This document shows, one piece after another, positions 39,118-42,268 of a stretch of DNA of 64,000 bases (the first letter of the stretch is position 1; the number at the start of each line of letters is the position of its first letter). This DNA is from Candidatus Saccharimonadota bacterium (GTDB lineage: Bacteria; Patescibacteriota; Saccharimonadia; Saccharimonadales; UBA4665). The position numbers and the translations under genes were made by a program. The stretch is taken from assembly GCA_025928155.1 (NCBI GenBank), contig JAICKC010000001.1, positions 1 to 64,000 of the forward strand, given 5' to 3'. The notes under the pieces are model-generated. The model was not told the origin of the DNA. It made no database searches and was given only the letters and a program-made list of their open reading frames with translations.

Positions 39118-41562
39118 TTACTCGTTCGAAATAACGCTGTCAAGTTTGGTGAGCTTGTACTGGGTGTAACGCTCGGCAGCTAAGCGGGCCAGTTCTGGAT
39201 CTTCACCTTGATTGACGAAGCGCATCGCCTCAGCAAGCAGCGGGTGAACCTCAGCGACCGTGGCGTGCATCTGCTGGACTAGCTTGCGGTAGCTGGGGTG
39301 GCCTTGTGGGCTGCTGCGGAGTTCGTGCAGATGGAAGGCCTCGCGGGCGTTGTAGGTGACCTTCCAGCGCATTTTGTGGCCGAGCAGCGTGGCATACTGA
39401 GCCTCCAGTAGTAAGCCGCCGGCCTGGAGGGCACTGTATAGCTGGAGGCTCAAGTCGAAGCACTGCTCGAAAGCGTTAGTGGCACCAGCTTCCTCTACTA
39501 ATTTTGGCACGTCGTAGCCGAGGCGTGGGCTCAGAGCCTGCCACTCCAGGTCATCCACCATACGATGGCGCTGCAAGTCTCGGAATGTGCCGTAGTCGGA
39601 TACAAGGTCAAAGCTGTAGTGAATTTTCTCGAGCGCACGGCCGGGTTTGTGTCTGCGGTTGAGCCGCTCACCAACGTAGGCTGTTAAAATATCGACCTTG
39701 CGTTGATAGGACCAGCTCACCACTTCTCGTTGTAAGTACTGCAATGGTAGGTCACTGTGCTCATACAGAATGTCGGCGACAATGTCGAGTTCGTTGTGCG
39801 GCGTGTAGCCTACGAGTGTCACCGCCTTGGTCTCGAATGTGTGGTTGGCCGGCAATAGTTCCTCGGCGAGTTTCTTGACGTTGGCGTAGGTGTTGGCCCG
39901 ATACGCAATAGTGGCCCCGCCACGGTCGGGCTTGTCGGCTCGCTCCAGAAACACTGGCGCGACTTTGCGTGCTTCGTCAAGAACCTGCTGGCCGACCACG
40001 CGGGCCTCCGGGAGCTCATCGCCGAGCAAGTGCATGATGAGGCTTTCAAGCGCCTGCCCGGAAGCGTAGATGCCCACAGTCGTCTTCGTGGCGACAGGCA
40101 GCAGTGGCCGAATGGCGTCGCGGGCCTGGGCCTTGGTAGCGCTGCGCCAGGCGGCGTCGCGCTCCTTTGCGGGCGTGGACGACGCGGCGCGGACATGGGT
40201 CGTAAGGTCGATGACCAACTTAGAATAAATGTCGAAAATTTGGTTCATGGTGCGGATGTATTGGCTGCGCAGTTTGCCTTTGAGCTCGGACGGTATGTAG
40301 TAGCGGTAGTGGCCGTCCACATCTTTCTGATCGAAGTAGATGTAGCGCGTCGACTGCTCCAGATAAGCGGCCAAGCGGCCCCACTCGAGCTTTTTGCTGA
40401 GCAGCTGGCTGGCATTCTCAACTACCATGTACTGGCCCGTAAGCTGCTGCACGGAATCGTCCCCAAAGGCGGTGATAACTCGGTGGAGCAGCTGCGCGTC
40501 CTTATCGACCTTACCGACGAATTCATCAAGCAGGGTTACGCGCATGTCATCGCCGCGGCGACTGAGGCGGGCCATGGCGGCGGCCACGGTAACGGGCGAA
40601 ATAGCGTCGGTAAACCCATAGACTGAGCCGTCGGTATTGGTGACATACTTGAGGAGTTCGGCTTTGCCTGCTGACGTGACGCTCATAGAACCGTTGTCGT
40701 GCTTCTGGGTCCATGCCTCTATATTTTGCGGCTCTTTTCCCTTGTCTACTTCGGCGGAAGCGGGAGGAGTTTCTTTGGTCTGACGGGAAGGCTTCTCAGT
40801 TTCCCTCTGAGCTTTGGTCGGACCGACGAGGGTTGTTGCTACGATGGGCGGCTCCGTCGCGGCCACCTTGGTCGGGGGGTTGGCAGCCAGAACTTCAGCG
40901 ACCGACTGGGGCTGCGAAGCTCCGGGCTGCTCGCGGCCACCTAGCGTCGCGGCCACCTGTTCCCATATACGTTTGAATACGGTGTCGATATCCTCGTTGG
41001 CGTACACAACGGGCAGATTGCGCTGCTTAGCCTCCCAGAGGTAACCAGCGCGGACGCGCTCGTAAAAACCGTCGTCGAGCTCACCGAAACGACCATGGCT
41101 ATTCGTACGGCCGGCTAAGCGTTCGCGGAGTACTGGTACCGGGGCGTCGAGGACGATCATGAGGTCGGGCCGCATGTCGCCAACGGCGAAGTCGATGATT
41201 TCGTTGATTTTGGTGTAGTCCTGCACATCGCCACGGCCATAGTACTGGTTGGCGAGTGTGGTGAGATAGCTGCGGTCAACGAGGCAATGTACTCCGTTTG
41301 CGGTGGCCTGGCGAATGACTTCGAGTGACTGCGAGCGAGCGGCATTGAACAGCAGTACTTCGGTGCGCGTGGTGGTTGGGTAGCTGGGGTCGCGGGTGAG
41401 ACGGCGAATAACCCGGGCGGTCAGATCGTTTTGGCTATCTGGCTCGCGCATGACCCGCACCGGTAAGCCCTGGGTACGCAGCTGGTCGGCGACTTTATGT
41501 ACCATGGTGGTTTTGCCCACACCTTCGGCGCCTTCGATGACGATGTACTTACCTTTAGTCAT
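39118..41562 (-). CDS. fusion protein: thymidylate kinase + tandem ThyX-like (FAD-dependent thymidylate synthase) domains
   Basis: Tmk: YIVIEGAEGVGKTTMVHKVADQL, LVDRSYLTTLANQYYG; ThyX-like: FGDDSVQQLTGQYMVVENASQLLSKKLEWGRLAAYLEQSTRY and FRDLQRHRMVDDLEWQALSPRLGYD. Confidence 0.85.
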   Translation of the reverse strand: MTKGKYIVIEGAEGVGKTTMVHKVADQLRTQGLPVRVMREPDSQNDLTARVIRRLTRDPSYPTTTRTEVLLFNAARSQSLEVIRQATANGVHCLVDRSYLTTLANQYYGRGDVQDYTKINEIIDFAVGDMRPDLMIVLDAPVPVLRERLAGRTNSHGRFGELDDGFYERVRAGYLWEAKQRNLPVVYANEDIDTVFKRIWEQVAATLGGREQPGASQPQSVAEVLAANPPTKVAATEPPIVATTLVGPTKAQRETEKPSRQTKETPPASAEVDKGKEPQNIEAWTQKHDNGSMSVTSAGKAELLKYVTNTDGSVYGFTDAISPVTVAAAMARLSRRGDDMRVTLLDEFVGKVDKDAQLLHRVITAFGDDSVQQLTGQYMVVENASQLLSKKLEWGRLAAYLEQSTRYIYFDQKDVDGHYRYYIPSELKGKLRSQYIRTMNQIFDIYSKLVIDLTTHVRAASSTPAKERDAAWRSATKAQARDAIRPLLPVATKTTVGIYASGQALESLIMHLLGDELPEARVVGQQVLDEARKVAPVFLERADKPDRGGATIAYRANTYANVKKLAEELLPANHTFETKAVTLVGYTPHNELDIVADILYEHSDLPLQYLQREVVSWSYQRKVDILTAYVGERLNRRHKPGRALEKIHYSFDLVSDYGTFRDLQRHRMVDDLEWQALSPRLGYDVPKLVEEAGATNAFEQCFDLSLQLYSALQAGGLLLEAQYATLLGHKMRWKVTYNAREAFHLHELRSSPQGHPSYRKLVQQMHATVAEVHPLLAEAMRFVNQGEDPELARLAAERYTQYKLTKLDSVISNE

Positions 41563-42268
41563 AGCTCATCCCTTCAATTTTCACCGGTAGCTGACGCTGG
41601 TCGCGGTAAGCCTGCGGCAACATCAGGCTGGGCGACCAAGCCTTAATGAGGGTGTCGAGATCGCTGCCCTGCTGGTATTTGCCGCTAAAGCCACTGTCAC
41701 GCCCCTCGCCGTAGCTGCCTTCTATCTCACCGGTCTCGTGAAAAACGGCTTGGGCGATGCGCTCGCCGACCGGCAGGAGCATCATCTCGCGGTGATTGAG
41801 GTTGTAAATCTCGAGCGTCAGCCGGTTGATATAGCCGGGGTCAATCCAGCCAGCGTCGAAACAGACTGCGATTCCATTGCGCCCCCATGACGACCGGCTT
41901 CTTAGTTCGCAAGCACCGGGTGGCGTAATACCGAAGAATTCGTGGGTGTGCGCCAAGATACGTTCACCGGGTTTGAGGGCGATAACAGGATGATCTTCAG
42001 GGATACCGGCAATGGGCTTAAAGCCATTCAGGGCACACCATTGACTATGTGGCATAGCTTTGTATGGGCCGTCAAAATAACGTTCTACATCTTCCCGATC
42101 GAACGGATTATAAATAGTGCGCTCGTCAGCCGGCTCAATACGGTAATAATAATAGCCCAGCGTAACATCCAGACTGGCCTCGCTCACATAACTGGGGTTG
42201 AACGGGTGACAGACGATGTGATTATCCGCGATGGCTTGTCGGACCTGCTTGTTACTATAGACGCCCAT
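41555..42268 (-). CDS. dcd: dCTP deaminase
   Basis: DVTLGYYYYRIE; ILAHTHEFFGITPPGACELRSRSSWGRNGIAVCFDAGWIDPGYINRLTLEIYNLNHREMMLLPVGERIAQAVFH. Confidence 0.93.
   Translation of the reverse strand: MGVYSNKQVRQAIADNHIVCHPFNPSYVSEASLDVTLGYYYYRIEPADERTIYNPFDREDVERYFDGPYKAMPHSQWCALNGFKPIAGIPEDHPVIALKPGERILAHTHEFFGITPPGACELRSRSSWGRNGIAVCFDAGWIDPGYINRLTLEIYNLNHREMMLLPVGERIAQAVFHETGEIEGSYGEGRDSGFSGKYQQGSDLDTLIKAWSPSLMLPQAYRDQRQLPVKIEGMSYD

Follow-up and report, generated by a model that had tools for sequence, protein, structure and literature searches.

A thymidylate kinase fused to a tandem ThyX whose active-site motifs are divided between its two halves: a predicted two-step thymidylate protein of the Saccharimonadales

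Coupled steps of the thymidylate pathway are carried on one chain by the bifunctional DHFR–thymidylate synthase of protists and plants, in which a ThyA-type synthase is joined to the folate-recycling DHFR. The protein described here resembles it in that consecutive or coupled steps of the pathway share a chain, but differs in that it uses the unrelated ThyX together with the downstream kinase. ThyX is a 222-symmetric tetramer with its active sites at the monomer interfaces (Basta et al. 2012, PMC3498832). In the T. maritima enzyme dUMP is hydrogen-bonded by Arg78, Arg80, Ser88 and Arg90, and in PBCV-1 ThyX the ligand in the pocket is held by Ser88 and Gln89 of monomer B and by Gln75 and Arg182 of monomer A (PMC3498832). 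Our protein shares with ThyX (TM0449, M. tuberculosis ThyX) the domain family, the active-site residues when those of its two halves are pooled, and a site of the inter-monomer kind. It differs in having two unlike halves per chain, with RHR in the C-half only and SxRY in the N-half only, in scoring below the equivalog cut-off, and in having two predicted live sites per tetramer equivalent rather than four. Unfused tandem ThyX proteins in Acidimicrobiia, Rokubacteriota, other CPR bacteria and large phages have the same halves and the same motif split, but lack the N-terminal kinase and are at most annotated 'thymidylate synthase'. A search of the open-access literature found no paper on tandem ThyX, its biochemistry or a Tmk–ThyX fusion; the tandem arrangement may already be recorded in a domain-architecture database or a subscription paper.

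The window, that is, the whole 64,000-nucleotide stretch of DNA analysed, contains a single ORF of 814 residues at 41562..39118 on the minus strand, in which Tmk is followed by a linker, disordered, and by a pair of ThyX domains (PF02511). A sequence-only reading had placed the 814-residue ORF at 39118–41562, without naming its strand, and had described a Tmk joined through a linker to two ThyX-like regions; both descriptions hold, Pfam finding Thymidylate_kin and two Thy1 stretches. An AlphaFold2 model of the fusion (56 homologues) has a mean pLDDT of 88.6, with the kinase and both ThyX halves folded. Disorder is confined to residues 211–219 and 230–279 (pLDDT < 50), within the Pro/Thr/Glu/Lys-rich linker of residues 211–290 (40693..40932, minus strand).

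The kinase domain occupies residues 1–210 (40933..41562, minus strand) and is a complete Tmk in domain, P-loop and fold, differing from the known family in being joined to ThyX. PF02223 matches residues 9–199 (E = 2e-23), the dTMP kinase equivalog TIGR00041 is passed at 104.3 bits (cut-off 83.25), and the model superimposes on Aquifex Tmk (4s35) with Z = 26.6 and an rmsd of 1.8 over 192 residues. The Walker A motif reads as an intact G11-AEGVGKT-18 (41509..41532, minus strand).

The ThyX N-half (residues 291–550; 39913..40692, minus strand), in which the dUMP-side residues are kept, scores 61.4 bits against PF02511 and its profile matches M. tuberculosis ThyX 3gwc (E = 1.7e-9). The C-half (residues 551–814; 39121..39912, minus strand), with the RHR and FAD-side residues kept, scores 51.4 bits and matches T. 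maritima ThyX 1kq4 (E = 5e-8). Each half alone thus lies above the PF02511 cut-off of 24.8 bits in a genome-wide search, which is the check that had been proposed for them, and on these profiles both halves are ThyX homologues. Direct profile–profile comparison of the N-half with the C-half is not significant (3% probability), so that their common origin rests on each of them matching ThyX. In a fold search with the model of the fusion, the matches listed were filled by Tmk. The ThyX part falls below the NCBIfam ThyX equivalog TIGR02170 (48.7 against 87.9 bits), as does an unfused tandem (L196), likewise at 48.7 bits. The tandem probably works like ThyX, yet it lacks the one-chain signature of the canonical family and scores below its equivalog.

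The motif-bearing stretches quoted in the sequence-only reading are present in the protein, KLEWGRLAAYLEQSTRY at residues 391–407 and DLQRHRMVDDLEWQALSPRLGY at 662–683. The first half had been said to have kept QSxRY and lost RHR. The former is right, E402-Q-S404-T-R406-Y407 being intact (40342..40359, minus strand) and corresponding to the motif that holds Ser88 and Arg90 in T. maritima ThyX; the latter is right only for the first R and the H, since the RHR position reads W394-G395-R396 and the third residue, R396, is kept. The second half is as had been described: R665-H666-R667, the RHR motif, is intact (39562..39570, minus strand), the ThyX-spaced SxR is gone and the expected downstream S and R positions hold other residues. 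The C-half does contain an 'SPR', but this stands four residues beyond the place that RHRx7S would give it, and relatives do not conserve its R. The RHRx7S(x)R signature is found in no single domain, R665-H666-R667 being in the C-half and S404/R406 in the N-half. In T. maritima numbering, by our own reading of the alignment, the N-half supplies Ser88/Arg90 and Arg147, and the C-half Arg78/His79/Arg80, Asn163, Arg165 and Arg174. The Arg147 equivalent (1kq4 numbering) is R485, in an ARxLLP motif of the N-half (40108..40110, minus strand), and the C-half has Gln722 at this position; N738-A-R740 and R749 of the C-half (39316..39351, minus strand) align with Asn163, Arg165 and Arg174.

This division is conserved. 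R396, S404, R406, Y407 and R485 of the N-half are invariant in 56 of 56 tandem proteins, as are R665, R667, N738, R740 and R749 of the C-half, with H666 present in 55 of 56. Among 156 tandem proteins in which both halves were long enough to be read, 148 combine E[KQ]S[ST]RY in the N-half with RHR in the C-half, and RHR is found in the N-half of none (0/156). Of the eight exceptions, three have RGR or RNR in place of RHR in the C-half, one has VQSTRY in the N-half and four are decayed. Eight of the 148 have a string resembling 'SPRY' further on in the C-half, but its spacing is wrong and it is unconserved. In the single-domain ThyX proteins found by searching the whole phylum, RHRx6-8SxR lies on one chain in 20 of 20 cases. 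Judged from these alignments the complementary losses are not decay and the split pattern lies far above chance; with the pattern conserved in 148 of 156, we reject the possibility that the halves are an artefact or have decayed at random.

The split reading makes sense MECHANICALLY because the canonical ThyX site already pairs residues of one monomer with the Ser88 loop of another. The claim that the two halves retain complementary residues is supported both by its strict conservation and by its match to the inter-monomer division of the canonical site (PMC3498832). Because that site is shared between monomers, the halves most likely rebuild it as a pseudodimer. We consider it likely that the fusion is a two-step thymidylate protein, in which a tandem-ThyX pseudodimer with cross-half sites, of predicted assembly and flavin catalysis, makes dTMP and Tmk phosphorylates it. 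Two chains would be the equivalent of the ThyX tetramer. A live site would combine the RHR and the Asn163/Arg165/Arg174 equivalents of the C-half with the Ser88/Arg90 and Arg147 equivalents of the N-half; the C-half as type A and the N-half as type B would restore two complete sites for every two chains, while the two reciprocal sites, with neither set of residues, would be dead. Two chains per ThyX pseudotetramer would suit Tmk, an enzyme that acts as a dimer. The tandem ThyX would convert dUMP to dTMP with FAD and methylene-tetrahydrofolate, the N-terminal Tmk would convert dTMP to dTDP, and Dcd, probably co-translated just upstream, would feed the pathway. The benefit of a single chain may lie in a fixed stoichiometry or in the hand-over of dTMP.

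The tandem is specific neither to the Tmk fusion nor to CPR bacteria. Unfused tandem ThyX is found across the phylum of the window, in Actinomycetota, Acidimicrobiia among them, and in a single genome of the Rokubacteriota, and the Acidimicrobiia and Rokubacteriota tandems share the division of motifs between N-half and C-half seen in the window. A scan with a tandem profile found 57 viral contigs with tandem ThyX, many of 100–529 kb, at identities from 41% down to about 21%, and the split motifs are the same in nearly all of them. These viral loci (L265–L321, for example L275:2959-4281 and L299:2077-3465) are in many cases on contigs of jumbo-phage size. Several named phages (of Tunturiibacter, Vibrio and Microcystis) have related genes, which bear the annotation 'thymidylate synthase' or 'hypothetical protein'. 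Split genes for a heterodimeric ThyX were sought in phages and none was seen, the phage copies being tandem too. Tandem ThyX is apparently an old, widespread and unstudied form of thymidylate synthase.

The Tmk fusion, by comparison, was seen only in the order of the window (relatives named as Ca. Saccharibacteria, Saccharimonadia or Saccharimonadales). The survey that had been suggested for the fusion finds it in many families of this order and none outside it. Fused ORFs of about 740–860 residues are frequent in the family of the window and occur in many other families of the order, so that a fusion unique to the genome of the window is rejected; in other orders the tandem ThyX forms a protein of its own, about 450–620 residues long. 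Relatives with separate tmk and thyX, which the sequence-only reading had named as evidence against it, do exist: a separate tmk lies beside a tandem thyX at eight loci (L085, L091, L100, L109, L111, L114, L115 and L117, all but the first outside the order), and at L085, from genome G299 of the same order, dcd, tmk and tandem thyX follow one another unfused. The thyX in these relatives is, however, the unfused tandem, so that they date the fusion and leave the split-site idea uncontradicted.

The kinases found in the fused position belong to two lineages: K1, that of the window, of the TIGR00041 type, and K2, for which the closest model is NF005923, at a score below its cut-off. K2 groups in the kinase tree with stand-alone kinases that adjoin unfused tandem thyX, and a single lineage for all fused kinases is rejected there (AU p = 0.0042). 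The K2 fusions (L068, L078, L124 and others) and the window fusion carry kinases of different clades in the same N-terminal place and are otherwise closely related. On the ThyX tree neither K1 as one clade (p = 0.67) nor K2 as one clade (p = 0.81) is rejected; two fusions, or one replacement of the kinase in place, therefore suffice, and repeated swapping is unsupported. Four loci (L064, L065, L078 and L079) have an extra, separate Tmk-like kinase near the fusion, with the unusual motif LDRxPLSxxAYxxYGS.

Upstream of the fusion lies a dCTP deaminase-like gene, dcd (41555..42268, minus strand; PF22769, E = 2.2e-30; TIGR02274, 88 bits, below the cut-off of 92.8), whose stop overlaps the start of the fusion by 8 bases (TAA..ATG). 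A dcd-like gene is immediately upstream in nearly all fused loci, with a typical overlap of 4–23 bases. With dcd adjoining the fusion, the coding sequences for three predicted activities lie directly next to one another: dCTP to dUTP/dUMP, dUMP to dTMP, and dTMP to dTDP.

The sequence-only reading had also held that dTMP synthesis and phosphorylation are on one chain. This stands to the extent that the fusion carries the sole Tmk and the sole ThyX of a genome without ThyA, the activities themselves being assigned from sequence. The genome of the window (1.30 Mb, 98% complete) has no match to ThyA (PF00303), no other ThyX in a genome-wide PF02511 search and no second Tmk in a genome search; a hidden copy of any of the three, considered as a candidate, was not found. 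Its only match to thymidine kinase is of 21 bits, and SHMT, a source of methylene-THF, is present. The tandem is likewise the sole thymidylate synthase candidate in 16 of 16 actinobacterial and Rokubacteriota genomes of 1.3–5.4 Mb, which have no ThyA and no other ThyX. Within the order of the window ThyX and ThyA are nearly mutually exclusive: of 294 genomes, 158 carry ThyX alone and 97 carry a strong ThyA alone, while both are present in 17 and neither in 22 (Fisher p = 1e-37, uncorrected for the relatedness of the genomes, whose counts are not phylogenetically independent, and with a few single-domain ThyX included in the ThyX count). One family of the order has mostly ThyA and a separate Tmk of about 210 residues. 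Weak PF00303 matches (34–48 bits, at positions of about 105–225) occur in frames of about 211 residues at G376:C33:2406-2759, G298:C1:56831-57160, G413:C1:64517-64876 and G493:C78:4593-4934; these are perhaps a shortened ThyA-like protein or a hydroxymethylase relative.

Some genomes with ThyA provide a natural experiment. In six of them (G471, G456, G511, G377, G388 and G287) the motifs are gone from both ThyX halves with the frame still open, and in four of these (G471, G456, G377 and G388) the kinase P-loop is intact. The loci with decayed motifs in genomes bearing a ThyA-type gene, fused or tandem, are L239 (in G471), L240, L241, L244, L245 and L248. In G471, from the genus of the window, the fused Tmk is the only one, and a gene of the ThyA type lies at a distance of about 1.6 kb. 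Four other ThyA-bearing genomes (G376, G395, G339 and G347) have intact ThyX motifs. Motif decay affects 6 of 10 ThyA-bearing loci against 2 of 63 ThyA-lacking ones (p = 3e-5), a descriptive count of loci read by hand in genomes chosen partly for low scores. In G475 and G479 (L246 and L247) open Tmk–ThyX–ThyX ORFs of about 660 residues have lost the P-loop and all ThyX motifs; a separate tmk is found elsewhere in the genome and no ThyA was found. These ORFs may be a relic without catalytic function whose frame has stayed open in both species. The tandem ThyX frame at L130 (G313:C4:122600-125900) has one internal TAG and one internal TAA and is a pseudogene or an assembly error.

The same observations bear on what the ThyX part does. 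It might have changed activity, binding dUMP and flavin for some other reaction (on a different pyrimidine, as an NADPH oxidase or as a regulator), with dTMP coming from outside. The score below the ThyX equivalog and the 17 genomes of the order that have ThyA beside ThyX are in keeping with this, CPR bacteria often scavenge from their hosts, and we know of no characterised ThyX with split sites. We nevertheless regard such a change as unlikely, given that the tandem is the only candidate synthase in all 16 of the larger actinobacterial and Rokubacteriota genomes, that ThyX and ThyA hardly coexist in the order, that in the hand-picked genomes the loss of motifs is biased towards those with ThyA, and that the gene is set among dcd and tmk. 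Still less credible, indeed very improbable, is that the tandem is an inactive leftover on a working Tmk, its complementary losses being random decay. Relatives that keep the P-loop with the ThyX motifs gone (L239, L240, L244 and L245) are what this would lead one to expect, but those decayed cases look clearly different from the window protein, whose residues, like those of nearly all others, are intact and invariant, and whose genome has no other thymidylate synthase.

A further question, compatible with the split-site reading, is whether the fusion brings catalytic coupling at all or only co-expression, operon neighbours having merged. The long, disordered linker and the eight loci at which a separate tmk adjoins tandem thyX favour co-expression alone; the presence of two kinase lineages in one fused position and the persistence of the fusion across many families of the order, on the other hand, suggest selection for the joined form, and we see the matter as evenly balanced. 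Somewhat less likely than not, in our view, is a broader proposal, that an ancient ThyX branch, in CPR bacteria, Acidimicrobiia, Rokubacteriota and large phages, is an obligate asymmetric pseudodimer with half its sites dead, to which the Saccharimonadales joined two different dTMP kinases, dTMP being passed within one protein.

In human pathogens ThyX is a drug target. Dissecting its mechanism is difficult, in part because the homotetramer has four identical sites. In a tandem that carries one side of the site on each half, mutations can be made in either side alone, and such an enzyme would reveal whether half the sites are enough. The fusion is also a naturally joined pair in which the transfer of substrate from thymidylate synthase to kinase can be tested. 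For much of the order the tandem is the likely route to thymidylate, ThyX being present without ThyA in 158 of the 294 genomes.
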